Shown here one piece after another: positions 1 to 34,971 of a stretch of DNA of 35,069 nt. Under the pieces are notes generated by a model. The model made no database searches. It had not been told where the DNA came from and saw only the letters and a program-made list of their open reading frames with translations. The translations under genes and the position numbers were made by a program. Positions within the stretch are counted from its first letter, which is position 1, and the number at the start of each line of letters is the position of its first letter. The DNA is taken from the NCBI GenBank assembly GCA_947441055.1, contig CANETC010000012.1:1-35069 (forward strand), given 5' to 3'. This stretch comes from Cytophagaceae bacterium (GTDB taxonomy: Bacteria > Bacteroidota > Bacteroidia > Cytophagales > Flexibacteraceae).

Positions 1-667
1 TATTGATGGCATCCGCAATGTTGTAGACAATGTCCATTGCATGAGAAGCGGCAGCCGGATCAGCAACAAGCTGAATTCCGAAAAGCCCTCCTGGAGTACC
101 TAGGATGTAACCCAATGGATAAATTGCCCAACCAACCAATACGAACCAAGCCAAAACTCTCGTAGCCTTCGCTACTTGTGGTCCAGCGGTTTTGGCCAGA
201 TCAGCAACTTCACCAAACCAAACAAGATACGCGATATAGAAATAGGCTGCTCCAGAAATTACACCCCACATAACACTGCTGTCACGATCGATGGTTTCTC
301 CGAAATAGCCTGTTACCAACATTACCAATGAAGCAAAAATCAACTTCCACAATAGGGAAATTTTAGCGCCTGCTTTTTTAGTAATGAGATAGAATTCAAC
401 GCACATCAAAGGCACAGTAAGAATCCAGTCTACATAACGGAAAAAGGTTGGGGAATCGCCTGTTTCAAGGTTGTAACCTCTCATGTAGTAGTAGTGTACT
501 GCTGCAATAAAAGTAATCAATCCTGATACTAGGACAGATGTTCTCCATTTTTGAGGCGTGTTGTTGAGCTCAAAAAAGAAAAAGACTGATGAGGCCATCA
601 TGGCCATCGTTCCGATGAAGAATGTGAATGCAACGTAATTGTCGCTGGCAATCTTAAGGTGTTCCAT
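1..667 (-). CDS. Proteorhodopsin-family light-driven proton pump (3' end truncated by window edge)
   Basis: Manual translation from ATG at 667..665: MEHLKIASDNYVAFTFFIGTMAMMASSVFFFFELNN...HYYYMRGYNLETGDSPTFFRYVDWILTVPLMCVEFYLITKK...GYFGETIDRDSSVMWGVISGAAYFYIAYLVWFGE...GWAIYPLGYILGTPGG...MDIVYNIADAIN. Helix C RYVDWxLTVPLxxxEFYLI and the WAIYPxGY motif are typical of proteorhodopsins. Absent from the ORF track because it runs off the window. Confidence 0.96.
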   Translation of the reverse strand, partial: MEHLKIASDNYVAFTFFIGTMAMMASSVFFFFELNNTPQKWRTSVLVSGLITFIAAVHYYYMRGYNLETGDSPTFFRYVDWILTVPLMCVEFYLITKKAGAKISLLWKLIFASLVMLVTGYFGETIDRDSSVMWGVISGAAYFYIAYLVWFGEVADLAKTAGPQVAKATRVLAWFVLVGWAIYPLGYILGTPGGLFGIQLVADPAAASHAMDIVYNIADAIN

Positions 668-1120
668 TTTTTGTTTTTTAATTTTTCCTACTCTTAAGGC
701 TTTTCGGATTCTCCATGTTTTTTTAGTTGATTTCCATCTTCAACTTTGTTTCAACAAATCAATGAAAATATTGTTTAAAAAAGCAAAATAAAATTTCAAA
801 ATCAGTTAGAAATACAAAAGAAAATAATTTAAAAACCCTTTTGGACGAACAAAAAAGTCAAAAACCGCAACCTAACATTCATTAGACAAAATTACTTGCG
901 GACACCTTTCGGCGTTTTCCCGAAACATTCAAACCAAGTAACTCGATAATGATAGAATCCGCATTGAATGTAAATTATGATGGGAAAATCACAGAACCTG
1001 GCTGAAAAACATCATCCGGAAGATTTAAAAAAGAAAGGGAGGAATCTGGATTTATAAATTGATTTCATTCAGCCCATTTTGACTTTCATGCAAAATGGCC
1101 AATACAAATTTCAATTTTCC

Positions 1121-21672: not shown

Positions 21673-24600
21673 TTATCTTTCAATCATCACCCAACCGGAT
21701 TTTCCTTCAAGTCCCTGCATGTCGAGTCTCCAGAAATAGTTTCCAATTTCGAGGTCTTTGCCATCCCAGTCGTTCTTGTAATCGCTTGAGGAGAATACCT
21801 CTTTGCCCCAGCGATCTTTCACCACAAAGCGACTTCCGGCAGGCAGATTGCGGATTTCAAATTTGTCGTTGAGTTCATCTCCGTTTGGTGTGAAAAGTGT
21901 AGGCACAAATATATCCTCATCCTCCTCGCATTCAATTTCATTGGTAACCACACAACCGGTATCGTCCTGCACCCGAATGCTGTACGATCCTGGATTGAGT
22001 TTGCGGAAAAGAGAATCGCCCTTATAGCTGAATTGCGCGCCACCATTGAATGAAACCAGATATGGTTTAAATCCACCGGTAATTGAATCCAGCAAAACAC
22101 CGCCAAGTCTAAATCCTTGTGCGGATTTACGGAACATTCTTGCAGAAATGATGATTTCCGGTGGCTGACTTAAACTGAAAGGAATAGACTTACTTCCACT
22201 GCAAAGGCCAAATTGCCGAACTTCAAGATTGAAGTCGCCAGCCGGAATTCCACCCAATTCAAAAGTTGAATTCTGGAAATAACTTCCCTCCAAAGTATCT
22301 TGGGCAACAACTTCATCAGAACCAATTCGCTTCACCGTCAACACAATTGGACCAGTTCCCCGAATTTCAGAAAGCGTAACAGATCCGGAGGCTTCGCCAT
22401 AACAAATGATGTTTTTCGAACTGAATGCATTCTGAAGTGGCGCCTGACCGGGCTGCACAAAGCTGGTGTCATAATTACATCCACCGTCCGGACCATTGTC
22501 GCGGATTTTCAGGCTGTAAAATTCTCCCGGAGCTCGGGCAGTCAGCCCTGTGATTTTGAGCGTATCATTTATGCCGGAAACGAGTACAAAGTTTGTAAAC
22601 TGCCCTGCCAGACTATCAAATGAGAACCGGTATGGCCTTTGTCCGCCACTGAGGGCAAACACTGCTTCTCCGTCGAAGTTGTTGCAAGTGCTTTCCTTAA
22701 ACCGAACCAGATTGAAGCGCAAAGGCTGGCTTGGGAGCAATGCCCGGATGTACACATTTTCACAACCAGCTGCGCCCGAAGCATCTTTGATACTGATGCT
22801 GTAAAGTCCGGTCGAAAGGCCGCTGAAAACGGTGTCGCTTTGCGTTGCCACAACTTCACCAAAACCATTTGTAAGTGTAAACAAGTATGGCGCCTGCCCA
22901 CCCGAAATTCCGGATAGACGGATGATGCCGTTTGTATCCCCGATGCAAGGACTAATCAGGTTGATATTCCCAATTACAGGACGATCTACTGGAACCAGGA
23001 TGGAATCAAGAATGAAACATCCTTTGGAATCTGTGATTCGAACGATGAGAAGTCCACTTCCAAGATTGCTGATGATGCTATCGGAAGGAAGCGAGAAATT
23101 ATCAAAGCCAGTCGAATCCGGAAGTTGGTACTGGAAAGCATACGGAGAAGTTCCGCCGGCGAGACCAGTAATTTTTACTTTTCCAGTGTTGCCGATACAA
23201 GAACTTGTGTCTGTCAGCTGAAGTCCAAATACAAGTTGCGCGGGCTCTGGAACCAAAATCTGGTTGGAATCTACACAACCGGTTTTCAGGTCGCGGATAT
23301 AGACGAAGGCCAATCCGGCAGCGAAGCCTTCCAATGTGTCGCCAGCCTGAACCGGAACATATGAATCTGGAGCGCCGCTTAAGCTCACCTGATAAAGCCC
23401 GGAGCCATGCAAAATACTGTCCACTTTCAACTTCGCATCGGATCCTCCATGGCAATTCACCCCGGAAAGGAGGCTTATAAATCCATTCACCGGATCTTTG
23501 CGGGTAATAATTTTGGTAATGTTGGTAATGCATCCCGTAATCGTATCCTTTACGCGAATCTGGAATGTATCCGGAACAAGGTTTTCAAAAAGTGTCTGGC
23601 TGCTGAAGGCAGGATATCCCGGAACGAGGCTATACAAATACTTGCCTGAATTACCGGAACCATCTTCTACACCGATTACTTCAATCATGCCATCGGCGGT
23701 ATCTACACAAGAGCAGGAATTCTCGAAAGCCAGGTTCACGGCATAGTTATGCTGAGAAACCACATTTACATTCCGGAGGGTATCCACACATTGGGTGATG
23801 GTATCCCTAACGGTAAGTATGTAATTGCCCGGCAAGAGGTTCGTAAATACTGAAGCACTTGTATCATTAGAAAATAGGGGAAGTAAATGGTACACATATG
23901 CGCCCGTACCTCCTGTAACAGTTGCAGTGATTTTTCCATCTGCATTCGAGGCGCAGCTTAGGTTTTGAACTTCAGCCCGTAAATCCAAAGCGCAAGGCAA
24001 ACACCTTGGGTCATTTGCTGGCAAGAATTGTAATACATAATTGATGGTGCTGTCAATTCCCGCAGGACCATTGGTTGCCAAACAAGTAAGCGATGAATCA
24101 AACTTCACTACTGCACGAATCCGAACGGTGCCGGAAAGTCCGGTGAAAGTGTAAGTGGTATCTGTTCCGCTGGATTTTAAGGTATCATTTGCATACCACT
24201 CCACATTGAATGGCACCTCCAAATTAGTTCCCAAAGCATAAGTAACAGGCGTACCAGGACAAAGGAACACATTGTTTGCTGGTGAGGTAAGCCTCAGACT
24301 ATCCTTTACAGTGCTTAACGGCGAGGTATAAACAAGGATTGTACCAGAGGTATCCACAGATTTGCTCAGACATTGGGTACCGGACAAGGCTGTCATTACG
24401 ACCTGCACTGTATCAACTGCCTGAAGCGGCACATAGCTTAAAATATCTGAGGTTTGGCTAGGTTGCTCAACTCCATTGACCAACCAGGTATAGGTAACAT
24501 CTGGAACAAAGGCAGGATTCTGCGCCTGAACAACCGCAAGGCCACCAGCACAAACCAAGGTATCAATCCCAACAATGCCAGCGACCAGCTCAGCACCAAC

Positions 24601-27600
24601 CGGAGTTACTTGTATGGAAATAATCTGGCTTTGTGCATTTCCTGGATTAAAGCAGTTGGGATCAGGAGCAACTTCTACATAAACAAAATCTGCATTATTC
24701 AAATTTGGAATATTCTGAACTGGACCAGAATTCGAGTAAAAAGAACCATTTACATACCAGTTGTACACCATACCAGGAACATCTGGCGTGGTGATGGCGG
24801 TAAATTTAACTGTGTCACCCGAGCAGATTTTATTGGTATCTGCCGTCATCGAAAGCGCATACTGGAATTTAATTGCCTCAATTGTGAAAACGGCAGCGGC
24901 TGCACACAAATTGGTGTCGTACAAGATCATACTGTAGGAACCAGGAGGTAAATTTGAAATAGTGGAATCGGATGCAAGCGTATCGCTACGGAATGCATTT
25001 CCGTTTAGAAGCAAATCATAAGTGTAAGGCTTGCCATTTCCACCTACCAAGAAAGTAACCTTCGCCGTTCCGGCCGAATCTCCGCAAGCGCTCTGCGCTG
25101 TTCCCTGAATCAGGAATTGCAGTGGATCTGGTCCGGTGATGGTGATGGAAGTATCAAGATCACAGGATCTGTTGCCCTTAATTCGCAGCAAATAAGTTCC
25201 CACAGAAAGATTGGAAATTGTTTGCCCTGCGATTAATGGCTGGTAATCTGTCATTATACCCGGAATGAAATACGAGTAAGTGTCGGAGCCTGCGAGGGAA
25301 TCAATGGTGATAGACCCATTGTTGTTGCCAGCACAAGTAATAGGTTGAATTTTTCCAAGATAAAGTTCAACCGGTGTGCGCAGATTGATTAAAATTCCAG
25401 AAACACTTGTAACACAACCTTCTGAACTGAGAACACTTACCTTGTAAGCGCCTGCTTTTATGCCAGTGAATGTGGTGTCGTTTCCAGAAACCACCAGGGT
25501 ATCGCTGTAAATTGTTCGAATGGTATCAGTGCCGGCAATCAGCGTATCTCCACTAAGAATTACCGTGTAAGGCCCAACAACTCCACCCAAAGAAACCGAA
25601 ACAGAGCCAACTGAATCGCAGTCATTGGCCAAAGTGGTTACGGCAGCAGATAAGGCATAAATTGAGCCGATAAAATCGCTAACTGTGTCCTTACACTGTG
25701 TGGTTAAATCCTGTATTACAACCGTAAATGGACCTATTGGCTGACTTGGGAAAATTTGTAAAAACTGCGTTTGATTGAGTGTATCGTTTCCGTTCAATAT
25801 ATATTGAAAAGGCCCAATTCCACCAGAAGTTACAATCGCGAAAGCACGGCCATCATTTAGACCAGGACAATAAACAGGATTGGAAGCCGCTTCAGCTTTC
25901 AGTTCACAAGGACCACAGAAAATTGGCTTTTTGATTTCCACATCTCTTGAATCAAAACAGAAACCATCTGTAACCGACACCCTATAAATTCCAGATGGAA
26001 GGCTATCAGCAGAAAGGCTGTCCGAAACCACGATTCCAGAACTCAGTGAAGCAATTGAAATAGAATAATTGCTCGAAACGCCACTTAAGTTTACCACGAT
26101 TTGGCCATCATTATTGGCACAAGTTGGATTTGTTCCAAGCGCTGAAATCGTGAAAGGCACAGGTGATTTCCGGAGCTCATAATCTTTACTTGCGGAGCAT
26201 CCATTCTCACTTACCACCACGCGGTAATTTCCAGCAGGAATATTGCGAAGGGTGTCGTCGTTGCCAACAAGATTTCCACTTGTGATGCTGAACCAGGTGT
26301 AGCTGGCATCCATTGCACCAATTGCACAGGCAACAAGCGCACCATCGGAAGAGAAACATGTTGTTGGCTGAACCTCGTAAACGAAAATTGGAATGTTGCA
26401 GGCTGTATCGCACACATTGGCCTTCGGCACAAAAACCAGAATGGTATCTGAACAGGCAGTTCCAGACACGACCACCCGATAATTTCCAGAACTTAAATTT
26501 GTCTGTGATTTTCCGCTGGCAGAAAAGGCTGGGTCGCCTGTTTTTGTCCAGGTATAATTGAGGCCAGCGATTGCCAGACTGTCGTAAATGGTGGCAACAC
26601 CTCCAACATCAATACAATTTGCAGAGTCTACCATTGCATAAAGACCAAGGCCCGTTCCATCGGGTATCGTTATGTTGAGGCTGAAAGAGCAAAAACAATC
26701 TGCATTGTTGATGGTATCGGAAACCACAAGTTGATAAGTACCTGCCGGGACATTTTCCAGTTTAAAGGTTCTCGATAATGGCACTTCATTTTGGAACCAG
26801 CGAATTTTCAAACCGGCAAAGCGGGCAGAATCACGAAGGATGATGGCACCGTCCCTACCTCCACAAGCGGAAGGGCGACGAATTGAATCATTTACGGAAG
26901 CACGAACCCCAAGTGTTATTTCCTGGCTCTTATCAGAACCCACACCATTGTTGGTGTTCAAGCATGTATAGAATGGTTCAAAACGGACAATTGCCCGGAT
27001 TCTATCGCCCGGCTTGAGATAGCTTATGGTAAGGAAAGTATCAGTTTTGGTAATCAACAATGTATCATCTCTATACCAGTCTACCTCAAATGGCACACGG
27101 CCTTTCAGGTTGGTCTTTAAGCCAAAAGTGACTGGCGTGTTGCGGCAGATTAGGTCTGAGTCTGCAGGACTTACGACAAAAATGCTGTCACGGATGGTTA
27201 CAGAAAGCAACTTGGTAACCAAAATCGGCTCAGAAATATCTGTCAGAATTGGTAGACATCCTGCGCCAGAACTTGCCGTTAAGCGCACTTGTACATTGCT
27301 TTGAGCGGCACTTGGCGAATACACAAAAGTGGATCCGGTCTGGCCTGCAACAGGTAAACCATCCACAAGCCAGCCATATTGGATATTCGGGATGCCGTTT
27401 ACATTAAGCGCCTGAAAAGTAACGGACTGACCTTCACAAACCGTTGTGTTGCTGATTGCAGAAATACCGGCATCCACCGTTGTTCCACTTGGAGTAACGG
27501 CAATTGGACCACTATTTTGAATTAGAAAAGTCTGGTTAAAGCAATTTCCATCTGGGAAAATCCGAACCTGAATGGACTCACCATTACCAAGGTTACTCAG

Positions 27601-30600
27601 CGAAAGAATTCCGGTTAACTCAGAAAACAGAAAGGATCCGTTTCTATACCAATAAAATTCAAAACCTGGCAGATTTGTGGTTGCGGTAAAGGTTACCGAT
27701 TCACCGGCGCAAATTCCTGTGCTGCTAACTGCAAGATTAAGATCCACATTTTGCTTAATAACTTCAATTCTAAATTCTTTTGATTGCTGGCAGCCATTAG
27801 AGTCAGATAAAGAAAGTGTGTACAAGCCCGAAGGAAGATTTTTAATGACAGAATCTGGCGATAGGGTATCATTGGAAAAGAATAAACCATCACGATTTAA
27901 GGTATAAATCCAGGGTGCACCGGCACCACCTGTAATGCTGTCGATTTTCAGACTTCCGGCTGAATCACTACAAATTGAATTCACTATTTGACCTAAATAA
28001 ACCTTGACCGAATCGGGACCTGGAATTGTAAAAACTGTATCAAGGTCGCAGGAAGAACTGCCCATCAATCGAAGGTTGTAAGTACCCTTCGGAAGTCCGC
28101 CAATCACCAGCCCTGTATCAATAGGCAAAATTTGCTGACTAAATCCAGCGATGAAATATGTAAATGTGGGAGACCCTTTAAGCCTTGACAAACGGAATGA
28201 GCCATCATTCGAATTTACACAGGTGGTGGCCGAAATCTTTCCGAAAGCAAACTCAACAGGACGAATTCCCTGAAGATCAACAGAACGAACACTTGTGGTA
28301 CAACCTTCAGCGCTGGTGACCAAAACCTGGTAGAATCCACTTTGAAGCCCACTAAATTCTGAAACTCCATCGTTACTCAACACGGTGTCAGAATAAGTCG
28401 TTACCATGGTATCCAGAATTGCAACAAAACTGGAATCGCCTGTTGATGAAATAATGGTGTCGGTTCTGATGGTAGTAAACATGGTATCACCAGCCAAAAT
28501 CACCTGATACGGTGCTGTGGCTCCACCAACAGTTACCTGAATTTTTCCTCCAAGTGTATCACAACCAGGCTTCTCTGTAAAAACAGATACACCCATGGTA
28601 AGTTGAGTGCCAATTACATTGCGCACAGTATCGGTACAACCGGAAAACTGGTCTATTACCACAACCTTAAACGGACCTGCAGGCTGATTGCTGAAGCTGG
28701 CTAAAAATTCGGATTTTGTCTGGGCAGGGCCTTCGTTCAACTTATAGGTAAAAGGACCGAATCCACCCGATTCAATAAAGGCAAATGCCTCCCCATTCGT
28801 ACTGCCCGAGCAAAGAACAGGATTAGAAGCAGTAACCACATTCAGGGCGCAAGGACCGCAGAACTTAGGTTTGTCAACCATTATCTCCCTTCTTGTAGCA
28901 AAACAAAATCCATCTGTAACGGTAATCCTGTATTCTCCGGCTGAAAGTCCTCCTGCAAATGTGGAGTCAACTGAAACACCGCCACCAACGCTACTGATAT
29001 TGATAAGCGCAGAAGGGGAAATTGTTCCACCAATTATGGCCGTTACAGATCCATCATTGTTGGCGCAAGTGGCATTTGTAACACCAAAACCAATTGAGTA
29101 GGGTGGCGGATCCTTTCGCAGCGCATACTCAGCAGAGGCTACACAAGCATCTTGATTTACAGTTACTTTGAAAGTGCCTGCAGGAATTCCTGTAAGGGTA
29201 TCATTGTTTCCAATGATTGCGCCGGTGGAAAGATCTGTCCATAGGTAGGTGGCATCATCCATTGCACCAATTACACAGGCAACCAAACTTCCATCAGAAG
29301 AAAAACAGGTGCTAGGTTGTTGCTCAAAAAAGAATATTGGGAAATTGCAAGTCTGGCAGTTGTTGCGCTTTACAATGGTGAAAGACAGGGAATCAGAACA
29401 CCCAGATCCCACAACAACGACTTTATAATTGCCGGCCGAAAGGTTACTTTGATTGCTGCCGATACCAGAAAAAGAAGGATCTCCTTCCTTTGTCCAGTTA
29501 TAAACCAGACCTGTAGTTCCTGCCGTAATTTGAACCATGGCCGATCCGTTTGCATTGTTGCAATCTGCAGAATCAGTCATAACCGACAGGCCCAGTCCGG
29601 AACCCTGCGGCAGTAAAAATTCGTAAGGCTGATCGCAGGCAAGCGGACCTCCCAAGAGGTTATTGGTTACCAAAAGCTGGTAACTGCCACTTCCAACATT
29701 CAAAAGGCTAAATCCATTTGAAATGAGTTGACCATTCTGGAACCAGGCCGCTGTCTGACCAGCAAATTGGGCAGAGTCTACAAGGATGATTTTTCCATTC
29801 GAAGCTCCGCAATTACCCGGCAATACAAGAGAATCCTGAACAGAAGATTGATTAAGTGCAGAAATCAAAACCTGTGAGGTATCTACACAGGCACCCTTTG
29901 TCAGTACCAAGCTGTAAAGTCCTGATTTTGCCAAAACAAGTCTGGCCGAATCTCCCCCAACACCAAGACCTCCGGGAATTGTAAACCATGAATAATGCAA
30001 GCCCGCTGTATCTCCAGACGGAATAATCTGGATGCTTCCATCAAAACTGGTACAGTTGCTTGCGGCTGTAATTACTTTGCTGTAAGTGATTAGTGATGAA
30101 GGATTGATGGTCACGGAAGTGCTGCTGCTGCAGGCCGATGCCTGAACGACAACCTCATAAATTCCTCCCTGAAGACCGGTGATGTTTTGGCTGGTTGAAA
30201 ATGGAAGTCCGTTTTTTGTCCATGAAAAAGATGCCAAACCTGATTGACCCGAAATCTGGAGATTGATGGATCCATCATTTGTACCGCAACCTGTAATCTG
30301 GTTTACGGTAGTTTGAAGGACGATGGAGGGACTGATCAGATTAACTTCAGCAGAATCGCTGCAAATGCCCGATGAAACCACAACCTTGTAATTCCCGGAA
30401 GAAAGTCCACTTGCAATGGAATCAGTTGAAACCACAATTCCGGCTTCGTTTTTCCAGGTATAAGTGGCAGAAGCAATTCCGGTAATGGCTGCGGCAGAAC
30501 CATTGCTTCCATTGCATGTGCTTGGATTATTTTTCTGAATTGAAATCGCAATGGAATCAAAATCCTGAATGCTGATATTAGAAATTGTACGGGAACATCT

Positions 30601-33600
30601 GGTATTGATGTCAAGCACCGTAACCTGATAAATTCCCGCTGAAATTGAATTTTGGTTTGCAGCGCCAATCACCAAGCCGGTTCCGGTTCCAGACCAATCG
30701 TACGAATACTGGGCGCTTCCACCGGAAACTGCCAACAGAATAGAACCCGGTCCTGTACAACTTACATTTTTATTTGTGGCAAGCACCTCGACTGTATCCG
30801 GGGCTCCAATTTGGATGCCACTTAAAGTTCGAACGCAACCGCTGCTGATGTCTGTTACCAGCACTTCATAAGTTCCGGAAGCCAGGCCTGTAATGGAAGA
30901 ACTTGTTTCTGGTCTTCCTGTCCACACAAAACCAAAAGGCCCAGAAGAACCCGCAGGAGTAATGCTGATGCTTCCATTGTCGATGTCGCAGCTGGAATCG
31001 TTAATCAAATTGCTGCCCAGAACCAAAACAGGCGGTGCTGGTACTACCAGATTTTCAAGGTTGGAAATACACCCGCTGGTCAGGTCTTTTACAAGAACCG
31101 AATACGTGCTTGGGGCAAGATTGCTTTGCGTTGCCTGATTGGGAAGGGCGTTTGACCAATTGTAAGAATAATTCCCAGAACCGGCCTGAACCACCAAACT
31201 TATCTGGCCATTGTTTGCTGGAATTCCAGCCTGGCAACCAGCCGCAACAATGTTGGTGTCAACTGTAAAATTGGCTGGCGTTTGAACCACCGTAAACGGA
31301 AGTGATGTATCGGAACAAGTTCCAAGGTTTACAACCACAGCGTAATTTCCAAATTCGCTGATGTTCAATGCCTGAAGATTGGCACCCGATACCTCAACAC
31401 CATCCAACAACCACTTGTAATTACTGTTTGCACTTGCTGAAAGGGTTGCCTCGGCACCCAGACAAAAGGAATTCAGACCCGTAATTGTGGAAGGAGTAGG
31501 AGCCGGATCAGCTGTAACGGAGAAATCCGCAGAACTTGCGGAACATGCATTGGCATCGCTTACAAGCACATAGTATGCGCCCGCTTGATTAACGACAAGG
31601 CTTTGCCCATTTGCTCCGGATATTTCAACGCCGTTGCGAAACCACCTGCTGGAAAGCGAGGACGAAGAGTTCAAAGTGGCTGTGCCTGAAACACAGAAAT
31701 TGGTAGGGCCGGTGATAAGGGGTTGTGGAACACCAGGAAATTGCGAAACAGCAAACACATCCGAAACCACCTTGCAAATCGAATTGCTTAAACGGATGGA
31801 ATAGTTGCCCGCTTGACTGATTACCAAAAATGTATCAGTTGCACCTAGAATGTCAACGCCATCCAATTGCCACTGATTTCCGTCCAAGGCATTGGAACGG
31901 AGCCGTACAGAACCACCAATACAAAAACCCAAAGGACCACTGATGATTGGTTTTGCCGGTAATGGCCTGCGGTCAACCCGAACTGCTGCAGAGGTACTTC
32001 CGCAACCTTCCAGATTTGTAACGCGAACTTCATAATTGCCGGAATCGAGCGCAACCAAAGTCTGTGAGATTCCTTCCGGGGCAAGAATGTTTTGTGAATT
32101 TCTAATCCACTGATTTCCAGAAACCGCTGAACTGGAAAGCACCAGGCTATCACCCGGACAAATGGGTGAAGAACCTGAAAGAATGGCAACCAGTGGATTG
32201 GCGGGAAAATTATTGACCGCAATTCTTTTGCTTCGTGGAATACCTGCACAAGGTCCGCTGATTGGGGTTACGGTATAATCCACAAATCCATTTCCTGCTG
32301 AAGCATCCGCAAGGCTAAGTTTCTGCCTGATTTGATTTCCACTTCCGGCACTGGCACCATTCACATTGGAAGAAGTGGCTGTCCATGTATAGGTAAGTCC
32401 GGGAATCTGGGCAGACAAGACGATAATGAGCGAATCACCATCGCAAAGACTGCTGTCAACAGGGTTCAAATTGAAAGGGATATCCGGATTTGACACCACA
32501 ATTTTGCTGAGAACAGAATCAATACATCCCGCCCTTTCTGCGTAGATATGATAAGTGGCGGAACCCAGATTTCCTGAAATCAGACTGAGGTTTTGCTCAA
32601 TCAGAGTCCCTGTTCCGGCTGAAGACCCATTTACATTTCCAGATACAACCGTCCAAGAAAAGGCAACATTGTCGGATGGTTCGGCACTCAAGTTAATGCG
32701 AACAGATTCTCCAGAACAAATGCTGTCTGCTGTGGCGATTGCAGTAACTTTTGGCAATGGTTTCACCACCACCGGAAGAAACAGCGTATCGGTTGGACAT
32801 TCTGAAATGGAACCAAAAATGCTGTAAACAACCGTTTTGTCAGAAACATCTGTATTAATCAATGTTTGATTGAAAGAGGTTCCACTTCCGGCTGTGGCGC
32901 CAATGGCAGAACCGGATTTGATGCGCCAGCTCCAGTTTGTATTTGGACTTAAATCCACCTGAAGCGGAGTTCCGGAACAAACAACCGGAGCTGGATCTGA
33001 AGGGACCGGCGGTGCAGAACGCACAACAATGGCCTTGGATGAGATTTCGGGTCCTGCGCATGAGCGGTAAGAACCAACAATGGTGTATGTGGCAGAATCA
33101 GTTCCTGAAACCGGATTTACAAGCAATTGCTGAATCAGGTTTCCGGTACCGGCAGAAGCACCAGTGATAATGCCCGGCTGAACTGTCCAGTTAAAAATTG
33201 TTCCGGGCAGGTTCGAACTGAATGCAAAAGATGTGGCATTGCCCGAACAAATGGTATCCCGAACTGGAAGCGAAGAGATGGTTGGCCTGGGCTTTACATA
33301 AATCTTTCTGGTAATCTGCACCCCCGGACAATCGGGTGTAGTTCCATTGATGGTGTAGGTAACATCTCCGCTTACAAGACCAGTTGCGATTAATTCATCC
33401 TTGATATTATCTCCATTTCCATTGCTGTTACCTGTAAGTCCGTTGGCAGTAGAAGTCCATGAAAAACTGGTATTAGGCAAGTTGGAAACAAGTTGAATTC
33501 GAATGGAATCACCTGTACAAATGCTGTCACTTGAAGTCAGTGCACCAATCACCGGACTTGGAAAAACCTTAACCCTGTGCTCTTTTGCAAGAGAAGAACA

Positions 33601-34971
33601 AGCATTTGCAACCGCAAAGGCAGAAAAATCTGCATTTAGAATTGTATTGCCCGGATTGGAATAGGTTTGAGAATTGATGCTGCCAACTCCCCCAATTGCC
33701 CCTGCCCCATTCGGATTAACTGTCCAGAAAAAACTGGAACCGGGCGTATTGCTTGAATAATTAAAAGTAAGCGACTGACCCGTACAGATGCCCAGTGTGT
33801 CATTCTGATCCACTGTAACCAAAGGAATTGGCTTCACGGTAGCCACCACCTGGATGGAATCACCTACACAACCATTTGAAGTACCAGAAACCTTGTAAAT
33901 AACTTTGCCATTGGTAATTCCTGTGGCTGTAAGCACCTGACTGATTACAGTCCCGCTGTCATTGCTGAATCCTGAAACCTGTGAACCTGTCGCAAGCCAG
34001 TGAAAAGTTGTCGGCGTAAGGCTGCTTCCTAAGACAAAAGCCGTCGGAATTCCGGAACAAACCCCAGCCGAATCCGGACTAGAAGTGATAACAGGTTTGG
34101 GAAGAATTGTGGCAGTGGATGTAAAAACAGGACCCACACAACCCACGGTTGAAACAGGCCGGATGTTGTAAGTGACCGTACCATTCGCGGTGCCGGTGGC
34201 ACGCACATTTTGATTGATGGCAAGCCCCGAACCCGGAACTGCCCCCGCAACGCCTGAGCGAACGGTTGTCCAGGTGTAAGTAGTACCGGCTTGGTTGCTG
34301 CTTAAAGCCACACCCAAAGGACCTGAACAAATGGTCTGCGTAATCGGATTTGCCGCCCCAGTTGGTGGAATGTTTACCGTTACATTGATGATATTGTTGG
34401 CTGAACATCCGGACGGATCTGTAACCAATATGCTGACTGGCCCCGAACTGGTAAGCGCATTTGCAGATGGACTCGCTGGAATCGAAACATTCTGGCCGAG
34501 TAAAGTTTTCGGACCACTTGTTGAAACATAATTCCATTGAAAAACACTGCCGGGAATTGCATTGGAGGTAGCGCTCAAATTCACCGGCTGGCCTAGGCAA
34601 TTGTTGATGTCATTGCCAGCATTTACCACCACCGTGCGCTGGTTTTTGAGGGAAATAAAAATCGTGGTATCGAAACCAGAGTTATTGTCCTGAATAAACA
34701 CAAAATAATCCCCGGCCCTCAGGCTGGTTTGTGAGACCAGACCATCCCCGGAAATCGGATTTCCATTGGTGGGAAGATTTCCCCCCGACCAAGAAAAAAA
34801 GAAATCACCGGCATTACCGGTGAAATTGAAAGTGACAGATCCATTGTCGATTCCCAAACATGAAGGGTTGATCGTATCTGGAGGGAAAAAGATACTTGAC
34901 TGGCCTTTAGAAAAACTGGAAACCAGTAAGAGAAAAAAGGTTGAAAAAAGCAGACGAAAACGCTGATTCAT
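21673..34971 (-). CDS. Giant (4432 aa) secreted PKD-like/SprB-like repeat protein with T9SS type B C-terminal domain
   Basis: N-terminal signal MNQRFRLLFSTFFLLLVSSFSKGQ. Many Cys-delimited repeats: PKD-like (ICSGDSIRIQLVSNLPNTSFSW...), Ig-like (FCIGGSVRLRSNALDGNQWQLDG...), SprB-like (CxxxDGxIxxxxxGGxxPYxYxL...). C-terminal FVPTLFTPNGDELNDKFEIRNLP...VKDRWGKEVFSSSDYKNDWDGKDLEIGNYFWRLDMQG. Confidence 0.95.
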   Translation of the reverse strand: MNQRFRLLFSTFFLLLVSSFSKGQSSIFFPPDTINPSCLGIDNGSVTFNFTGNAGDFFFSWSGGNLPTNGNPISGDGLVSQTSLRAGDYFVFIQDNNSGFDTTIFISLKNQRTVVVNAGNDINNCLGQPVNLSATSNAIPGSVFQWNYVSTSGPKTLLGQNVSIPASPSANALTSSGPVSILVTDPSGCSANNIINVTVNIPPTGAANPITQTICSGPLGVALSSNQAGTTYTWTTVRSGVAGAVPGSGLAINQNVRATGTANGTVTYNIRPVSTVGCVGPVFTSTATILPKPVITSSPDSAGVCSGIPTAFVLGSSLTPTTFHWLATGSQVSGFSNDSGTVISQVLTATGITNGKVIYKVSGTSNGCVGDSIQVVATVKPIPLVTVDQNDTLGICTGQSLTFNYSSNTPGSSFFWTVNPNGAGAIGGVGSINSQTYSNPGNTILNADFSAFAVANACSSLAKEHRVKVFPSPVIGALTSSDSICTGDSIRIQLVSNLPNTSFSWTSTANGLTGNSNGNGDNIKDELIATGLVSGDVTYTINGTTPDCPGVQITRKIYVKPRPTISSLPVRDTICSGNATSFAFSSNLPGTIFNWTVQPGIITGASAGTGNLIQQLLVNPVSGTDSATYTIVGSYRSCAGPEISSKAIVVRSAPPVPSDPAPVVCSGTPLQVDLSPNTNWSWRIKSGSAIGATAGSGTSFNQTLINTDVSDKTVVYSIFGSISECPTDTLFLPVVVKPLPKVTAIATADSICSGESVRINLSAEPSDNVAFSWTVVSGNVNGSSAGTGTLIEQNLSLISGNLGSATYHIYAERAGCIDSVLSKIVVSNPDIPFNLNPVDSSLCDGDSLIIVLSAQIPGLTYTWTATSSNVNGASAGSGNQIRQKLSLADASAGNGFVDYTVTPISGPCAGIPRSKRIAVNNFPANPLVAILSGSSPICPGDSLVLSSSAVSGNQWIRNSQNILAPEGISQTLVALDSGNYEVRVTNLEGCGSTSAAVRVDRRPLPAKPIISGPLGFCIGGSVRLRSNALDGNQWQLDGVDILGATDTFLVISQAGNYSIRLSNSICKVVSDVFAVSQFPGVPQPLITGPTNFCVSGTATLNSSSSLSSRWFRNGVEISGANGQSLVVNQAGAYYVLVSDANACSASSADFSVTADPAPTPSTITGLNSFCLGAEATLSASANSNYKWLLDGVEVSGANLQALNISEFGNYAVVVNLGTCSDTSLPFTVVQTPANFTVDTNIVAAGCQAGIPANNGQISLVVQAGSGNYSYNWSNALPNQATQSNLAPSTYSVLVKDLTSGCISNLENLVVPAPPVLVLGSNLINDSSCDIDNGSISITPAGSSGPFGFVWTGRPETSSSITGLASGTYEVLVTDISSGCVRTLSGIQIGAPDTVEVLATNKNVSCTGPGSILLAVSGGSAQYSYDWSGTGTGLVIGAANQNSISAGIYQVTVLDINTRCSRTISNISIQDFDSIAISIQKNNPSTCNGSNGSAAAITGIASATYTWKNEAGIVVSTDSIASGLSSGNYKVVVSSGICSDSAEVNLISPSIVLQTTVNQITGCGTNDGSINLQISGQSGLASFSWTKNGLPFSTSQNITGLQGGIYEVVVQASACSSSTSVTINPSSLITYSKVITAASNCTSFDGSIQIIPSGDTAGLHYSWFTIPGGLGVGGDSARLVLAKSGLYSLVLTKGACVDTSQVLISALNQSSVQDSLVLPGNCGASNGKIILVDSAQFAGQTAAWFQNGQLISNGFSLLNVGSGSYQLLVTNNLLGGPLACDQPYEFLLPQGSGLGLSVMTDSADCNNANGSAMVQITAGTTGLVYNWTKEGDPSFSGIGSNQSNLSAGNYKVVVVGSGCSDSLSFTIVKRNNCQTCNFPIFFFEQQPSTCFSSDGSLVACVIGAMDDATYLWTDLSTGAIIGNNDTLTGIPAGTFKVTVNQDACVASAEYALRKDPPPYSIGFGVTNATCANNDGSVTAIIGGTISPSALINISSVGGGVSVDSTFAGGLSAGEYRITVTDGFCFATRREIMVDKPKFCGPCALNVVTASNPVLCSGSTNGEAFAFIESGGFGPFTYKLNEGPAQTKSEFLASFSNQPAGPFKVVVIDQFSGCTDTVRNVIGTQLTMGVSVFTEKPGCDTLGGKIQVTVGGATAPYQVILAGDTMFTTIRTDTIISSTGDSSFVAILDTMVTTYSDTVLSNDGVSEFSGLQSGFYQVLVTSAEGCTTSVRSVDLQGIRPVEFAFGKISATTCVNSNDGSFRLSRLKGSPTFTYFIAGFSQQILPIDTGLVIGGLPKGTYNLRLMGSSSCDLDTVFTIPGPDSVKVYLGQIVNSICSDSAGSLKIDSITGGAGAPWIYTLNRDGLFFSNDTLSPDSVIKNLPSGLYTLSLSDSNGCQQSKEFRIEVIKQNVDLNLAVSSTGICAGESVTFTATTNLPGFEFYWYRNGSFLFSELTGILSLSNLGNGESIQVRIFPDGNCFNQTFLIQNSGPIAVTPSGTTVDAGISAISNTTVCEGQSVTFQALNVNGIPNIQYGWLVDGLPVAGQTGSTFVYSPSAAQSNVQVRLTASSGAGCLPILTDISEPILVTKLLSVTIRDSIFVVSPADSDLICRNTPVTFGLKTNLKGRVPFEVDWYRDDTLLITKTDTFLTISYLKPGDRIRAIVRFEPFYTCLNTNNGVGSDKSQEITLGVRASVNDSIRRPSACGGRDGAIILRDSARFAGLKIRWFQNEVPLSRTFKLENVPAGTYQLVVSDTINNADCFCSFSLNITIPDGTGLGLYAMVDSANCIDVGGVATIYDSLAIAGLNYTWTKTGDPAFSASGKSQTNLSSGNYRVVVSGTACSDTILVFVPKANVCDTACNIPIFVYEVQPTTCFSSDGALVACAIGAMDASYTWFSITSGNLVGNDDTLRNIPAGNYRVVVSENGCSASKDYELRKSPVPFTISALGTNPTCANNDGQIVVNLSGVSSNYSISIASLSSGIVVSDSLSADSLPSGIYRVSVTDGFCFDSRDVEIKKPIFCGPCELKAEAASNPVYCPGLNDGRAFAIVTSGGIGPFQYILNGNDTLNQTQFLQIFPSQPIGPFTVVIQDLTTQCKDTVSDFIGSIYALSAAVTTLANDCDSVGSVSVSLGGVVGPYTVILSGDTLIAGTDTIRTIYSDTLVVSGNDTTFTGIKAGAYKVSVLSSEGCVTSVSGILINLRTPVELYLGKIQPITCAGNNNGSITIDSLAGSDTYSYFIPGIMTDYQPLIAGQTISNLSVGTYLLRIKGNRSCDLDTSITITGPDPLQFLIQGTAQSACGDSAGTAKVTFLVGGNGKPYTYDLLLNGNAFRSDTLASDSTISNLPPGSYSMILYDTNLCAAAAVFTIEAIKFQYALSMTADTNKICSGDTVKFTAITTPDVPGMVYNWYVNGSFYSNSGPVQNIPNLNNADFVYVEVAPDPNCFNPGNAQSQIISIQVTPVGAELVAGIVGIDTLVCAGGLAVVQAQNPAFVPDVTYTWLVNGVEQPSQTSDILSYVPLQAVDTVQVVMTALSGTQCLSKSVDTSGTILVYTSPLSTVKDSLRLTSPANNVFLCPGTPVTYALGTNLEVPFNVEWYANDTLKSSGTDTTYTFTGLSGTVRIRAVVKFDSSLTCLATNGPAGIDSTINYVLQFLPANDPRCLPCALDLRAEVQNLSCASNADGKITATVTGGTGAYVYHLLPLFSNDTSASVFTNLLPGNYILTVRDTITQCVDTLRNVNVVSQHNYAVNLAFENSCSCVDTADGMIEVIGVEDGSGNSGKYLYSLVPGYPAFSSQTLFENLVPDTFQIRVKDTITGCITNITKIITRKDPVNGFISLLSGVNCHGGSDAKLKVDSILHGSGLYQVSLSGAPDSYVPVQAGDTLEGFAAGLAFVYIRDLKTGCVDSNQILVPEPAQLVFGLQLTDTSSCIGNTGKVKITGLAGGTSPYAFQYQLPDSTGFDNFSLPSDSIISNLGSGLLIVRITDSKGCFILDSILVPVDRPVIGNINLISPCIGDTNGIIRLSGISGGQAPYLFTLTNGFGEVVATQSDTVFSGLSTGLYSISIKDASGAAGCENVYIRALLPSQPLRFNLVRFKESTCNNFDGEAVFALSGGQRPYRFSFDSLAGQFTNFVLVSGINDTLKITGLTARAPGEFYSLKIRDNGPDGGCNYDTSFVQPGQAPLQNAFSSKNIICYGEASGSVTLSEIRGTGPIVLTVKRIGSDEVVAQDTLEGSYFQNSTFELGGIPAGDFNLEVRQFGLCSGSKSIPFSLSQPPEIIISARMFRKSAQGFRLGGVLLDSITGGFKPYLVSFNGGAQFSYKGDSLFRKLNPGSYSIRVQDDTGCVVTNEIECEEDEDIFVPTLFTPNGDELNDKFEIRNLPAGSRFVVKDRWGKEVFSSSDYKNDWDGKDLEIGNYFWRLDMQGLEGKSGWVMIER
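24015..26910 (-). repeat. Intragenic superblock copy B (~965 aa)
   Basis: Collinear with copy A; runs from NDSIRRPSACGGRDGAIILRDSARFAG to VKFDSSLTCLATNGPAGIDSTINY. Boundaries approximate. Confidence 0.8.
26915..29850 (-). repeat. Intragenic superblock copy A (~980 aa)
   Basis: Runs from QDSLVLPGNCGASNGKIILVDSAQFAG to VRFEPFYTCLNTNNGVGSDKSQEI, matching copy B module by module. Boundaries approximate. Confidence 0.8.

Follow-up and report, generated by a model that had tools for sequence, protein, structure and literature searches.

A Bacteroidota proteorhodopsin with a fenestration glycine and a probable site for a hydroxylated carotenoid

Xanthorhodopsin (XR; PDB 3ddl) and Gloeobacter rhodopsin (GR; 6nwd) bear a fenestration glycine, Gly156 and Gly178, respectively, and bind keto-carotenoids. 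Replacement of this glycine by a bulky residue abolishes carotenoid binding in GR and in Kin4B8, a member of the xanthorhodopsin family solved with zeaxanthin (8i2z). The ring environment in Kin4B8 comprises Tyr204 and residues 205, 208, and 209; a polar residue at position 208 accompanies 3-hydroxy xanthophylls (Kin4B8 as well as the proteorhodopsins KR1 from Dokdonia eikasta and EINA29G6), whereas methionine accompanies keto-carotenoids (XR, GR) (PMC12308411). In GR, mutation of Thr179 and Thr182, together with other residues, affected canthaxanthin binding. The glycine has been reported in all Bacteroidota proteorhodopsins of one subtree (subtree I), for which carotenoid antennas were inferred (PMC13043013, 2026). 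Here, a proteorhodopsin gene is described that lies at the beginning of a 35,069-nucleotide stretch (the window), contig C12 (CANETC010000012.1) of a Cytophagaceae bacterium genome assembly (GCA_947441055.1; 2.95 Mb, 249 contigs, 89% complete). From its computed sequence register, fold, motifs, and accompanying genes we infer that it probably encodes a light-driven pump that absorbs green light, exports protons, and belongs to the proteorhodopsin clade of Bacteroidota; an opening at Gly135 would hold a 3-hydroxylated xanthophyll, which may transfer excitation energy to retinal, accelerate the photocycle, or both.

The gene (2..667; this and all features within it are on the minus strand) starts with an ATG at 665-667 and comprises 222 codons, its 3′ end being lost at the contig end. 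Since the reading frame runs off the contig, the seventh transmembrane helix and the retinal lysine lie outside the window. The translated frame matches Pfam Bac_rhodopsin (E 4.6e-38), and the span at 395..430 carries the D-T-E motif of proton pumps (D80, 428-430; T84, 416-418; E91, 395-397) along with a leucine at the green-tuning site (L87, 407-409; DTLE). Helix E, SVMWGVISGAAYFYIAYLVWFGE (residues 131-153), is encoded at 209..277; the initial annotation had given it as 245-271, an interval whose sequence was right and which covers residues 133-141, only part of the helix. Alignment with PDB chains places Gly135 (codon GGT, 263..265) unambiguously on GR G178, XR G156, Kin4B8 G153, and G142 of the proton-pumping rhodopsin NM-R1 (9jov), and for GR and Kin4B8 these residue numbers agree with those in published work. 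The proposed equivalence to XR G156 in an ungapped register is thus confirmed. The bulky phenylalanine that the initial annotation gave for green proteorhodopsin is likewise seen in 7b03, a protein that resembles the window protein in overall fold, DTE motif, and tuning-site leucine but whose site is blocked by this phenylalanine; Med12 proteorhodopsin (4jq6) has tryptophan at the same position. The initial annotation gave the GR helix in the correct register with a few wrong letters, the PDB chain reading IIWGTVSTIPFAYILYVLW.

The residues around the glycine bear on the type of carotenoid. The carotenoid- and retinal-facing side of helix F is encoded at 92..130 and includes W180 (128-130), Y187 (107-109), I188, T191 (95-97), and P192 (92-94). 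Tyr187, Ile188, Thr191, and Pro192 match positions 204, 205, 208, and 209 of Kin4B8, where NM-R1 has Y, M, T, and P. The window protein therefore displays both the tyrosine at position 204 and the polar residue at position 208 of a 3-hydroxy xanthophyll site. KR1 and EINA29G6 share this pair of Tyr and Thr (PMC12308411) but differ at position 209, where they have Asp or Glu instead of Pro. Kin4B8, at about 33% identity, has the glycine, the tyrosine, and a polar residue 208 in common with the window protein, which differs in having Gly139 for Thr157 and Thr/Pro for Ser208/Tyr209. A keto-carotenoid antenna as in XR or GR, which the initial annotation had offered on a par with a hydroxylated one, appears very improbable. 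Although Gly135 and Ser138 stand in the same register as in these two proteins (31-35% identity), GR Thr179 and Thr182 are replaced by Val136 and Gly139, and the hydrophobic methionine at the helix F site (XR M211, GR M233) by Thr191.

NM-R1 is the nearest solved structure by both sequence and fold. An AlphaFold2 model (39 input sequences) of an intact paralogue from the same genome, with a predicted local distance difference test (pLDDT) score of 87 and a predicted template modelling (pTM) score of 0.85, retrieved the zeaxanthin-bound light-driven proton pumping rhodopsin NM-R1 (9jou) as the top Foldseek match in the PDB (TM 0.89/0.92, 62% identity), followed by XR, GR, and Kin4B8 at 27-29% identity. 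The seven-helix Bac_rhodopsin fold is thus found by Pfam in the window copy and by superposition of the paralogue model, in which helix E corresponds to residues 128-150, on 9jou. Besides the fold, NM-R1 shares the site residues Gly135, Ser138, Tyr142, Phe143, Tyr187, Thr191, and Pro192 (window numbering). It differs from the window protein, which has V136 for L143 and I188 for M195 and whose closest named records are largely metagenome-assembled genomes (MAGs) from freshwater or ponds. Several points weigh against the proposed xanthophyll-binding pump. Gly135 opens the site, yet occupancy by a carotenoid is not proven thereby. The model describes the intact paralogue instead of the window copy, which is truncated. 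Relative to NM-R1, the FG loop that follows T191-P192 (window ~62-94) has seven extra residues, and its model confidence is low, with pLDDT values of 51-68. The genome is fragmented as well as incomplete, and the route to myxol, in particular, is incomplete, as it would need CrtD (possibly served by a CrtID-type enzyme) and CrtA-OH, neither of which was separately searched.

The carotenoid genes of the genome are in line with the site residues. Contig C52 encodes an ECF sigma factor, CrtI (NCBIfam CrtID above cut-off), CrtB, an IspH-like protein (assigned by eye), and a 164-aa protein, in a cluster crtI-crtB-ispH-crtZ. The last protein is assigned as CrtZ-like because it contains the four CrtZ histidine motifs and matches a Pantoea protein that is annotated as beta-carotene hydroxylase and encoded beside phytoene synthase; Pfam and NCBIfam give it no name, and the PF04116 (FA_hydroxylase) profile finds no CrtZ in the genome. 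A hydroxylase of CrtZ type, which the initial annotation had suggested looking for, is thus encoded in the genome. A CruF-family protein (over the Pfam cut-off, below the NCBIfam cut-offs) and a CarH-like MerR regulator (below cut-off) are encoded on contig C96. No CrtW, the other enzyme suggested, was recognised among the four FA_desaturase (PF00487) hits in this 89%-complete genome, all of which resemble fatty-acid desaturases or an alkane-hydroxylase-like protein; a CrtO-type ketolase was not searched. On the site residues and the lack of a recognised CrtW, the keto-carotenoid antenna was rejected. Genes of the genome cover all steps after geranylgeranyl diphosphate required for zeaxanthin. 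Because crtI-crtB-crtZ, a CruF homologue, and a fusion of the lycopene cyclase CrtY with the beta-carotene dioxygenase Blh are present and CrtW is unrecognised, the likely ligands are 3-hydroxylated xanthophylls, namely zeaxanthin and/or a carotenoid of the myxol type, and the bound pigment is probably a yellow hydroxylated carotenoid. A single pathway would then supply both chromophores: CrtB and CrtI, followed by the CrtY-Blh fusion, would yield beta-carotene and retinal, and CrtZ would yield zeaxanthin. In the proposed mechanism, Gly135 on helix E would leave a side opening next to the beta-ionone ring of retinal, into which one ring of zeaxanthin, or of a myxol-type xanthophyll provided that the remaining steps of its incomplete pathway are carried out elsewhere, could insert. 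The hydroxyl group would be anchored near Thr191 on helix F while the ring packs against Tyr187, and the bound carotenoid may hand blue-green excitation to retinal and/or speed the photocycle.

It is possible, if somewhat doubtful, that the carotenoid binds mainly to speed the photocycle or to stabilise the protein and harvests little light. This would agree with the increased stability reported for GR upon carotenoid binding. In contrast, excitation transfer from 3-hydroxy xanthophylls reaches as much as about 50% in Kin4B8, and a xanthophyll complex is also formed by KR1, itself a Bacteroidota proteorhodopsin. The sequence is compatible with either main role of the carotenoid, antenna or accelerator of the photocycle.

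The distribution of the glycine puts the finding into perspective. A scan of genome contigs gave 585 confirmed matches, of which the best 80 supplied the relatives. Nearly all of these 80 are labelled as Bacteroidota MAGs; the few other labels possibly reflect binning or naming errors, and many of the closest named records of the clade are freshwater or pond MAGs. Residues 134, 135, 138, 139, 142, 187, and 191 are invariant in all 81 rhodopsins of these loci (the raw tally of 84 includes three entries from the source genome). The glycine also occurs in 24 of 24 further hits ranging from genus to order level, among them three distant rhodopsins that lack the DTE motif, although this set may share a few genomes with the best-80 set, as L088 and L005 do. 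Since Gly135 is invariant in relatives and has been reported for the group (PMC13043013), it represents the known norm of the clade: the fenestration glycine is real, yet a normal and already described state of Bacteroidota proteorhodopsins. A residue fixed throughout the clade carries no organism-specific information, and the glycine might therefore simply be inherited, with a pump that runs on retinal alone and a lipid filling the opening. This is unlikely in view of the zeaxanthin found in the NM-R1 structure, the CrtZ homologue present in 17 of the 19 genomes searched (source genome and relatives), and the conservation of the neighbouring site residues. The initial annotation is thus partly supported: its interpretation was right in kind, it went wrong in treating keto-carotenoids as equally likely, and the site it singled out is neither distinctive nor new. 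The analysis confirms that the open carotenoid site is shared by proteorhodopsins across a large Bacteroidota clade, and it points to hydroxylated carotenoids as the likely ligands, which adds breadth but no new principle.

Two other features of the system may deserve more attention than the fenestration, namely the duplication of the pump and the CrtY-Blh fusion. The intact paralogue (238 aa) resides on contig C138 (L003:3854-4570) and contains the retinal lysine (NKIGFG). It is 97% identical to the window copy in protein and 84% in DNA and has about 80 bp of 5′ flank in common with it; when C12 is compared with C138 by blastn, the match reaches window position 747, and 668..747 (minus strand) is a probable promoter or leader. 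Comparison of the two copies gives a dS of about 1.2 and a dN of about 0.02. Synonymous codons that have stayed the same lie in clusters (p = 0.00015 in a shuffling test), the longest run spanning codons 121-137. This pattern suggests gene conversion between the copies; the shuffling result is compatible with local constraint on the DNA as well, though relatives are less conserved in the identical blocks. The relative G004 harbors a rhodopsin copy that is closer to the C12 gene than to the C138 gene (92% versus 87% DNA identity), with a complete C-terminus that ends NKIGFGLVIYSLSRTED and includes the retinal lysine. A transposase-like open reading frame (IS110 type by eye; L120:1106-2542, contig C53 of G004) is located ~600 bp downstream of this orthologue-like copy. 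The duplication is not confined to the source assembly, as locus L043 contains two rhodopsin copies on one contig (577-1293 and 3958-4671) with CrtY-Blh between them. Two copies also occur in LF-bin-173, on two contigs (L008 and L050).

Adjoining the paralogue, CrtY and Blh form a single 700-aa open reading frame (L003:4588-6690, contig C138). Both domains reside in one open frame at 44 of the 53 loci of relatives where both were found (46 of 55 with the two entries from the source genome). No description of a bacterial CrtY-Blh fusion was found in the literature searched. The fusion, common near these rhodopsins, might channel lycopene through to retinal, a possibility that is open to experiment. 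A speculative scenario, to which we attach little credence, is that two near-identical, carotenoid-ready pumps at separate loci are homogenised by gene conversion including the fenestration codon, with one linked to CrtY-Blh; they might be separately regulated, one being produced in step with the supply of retinal and the other when needed.

Elsewhere in the window, a 4432-aa repetitive protein of secreted type is encoded at 21673-34971 on the minus strand; its C-terminal end resembles, by eye, those of gliding or type IX secretion system proteins.
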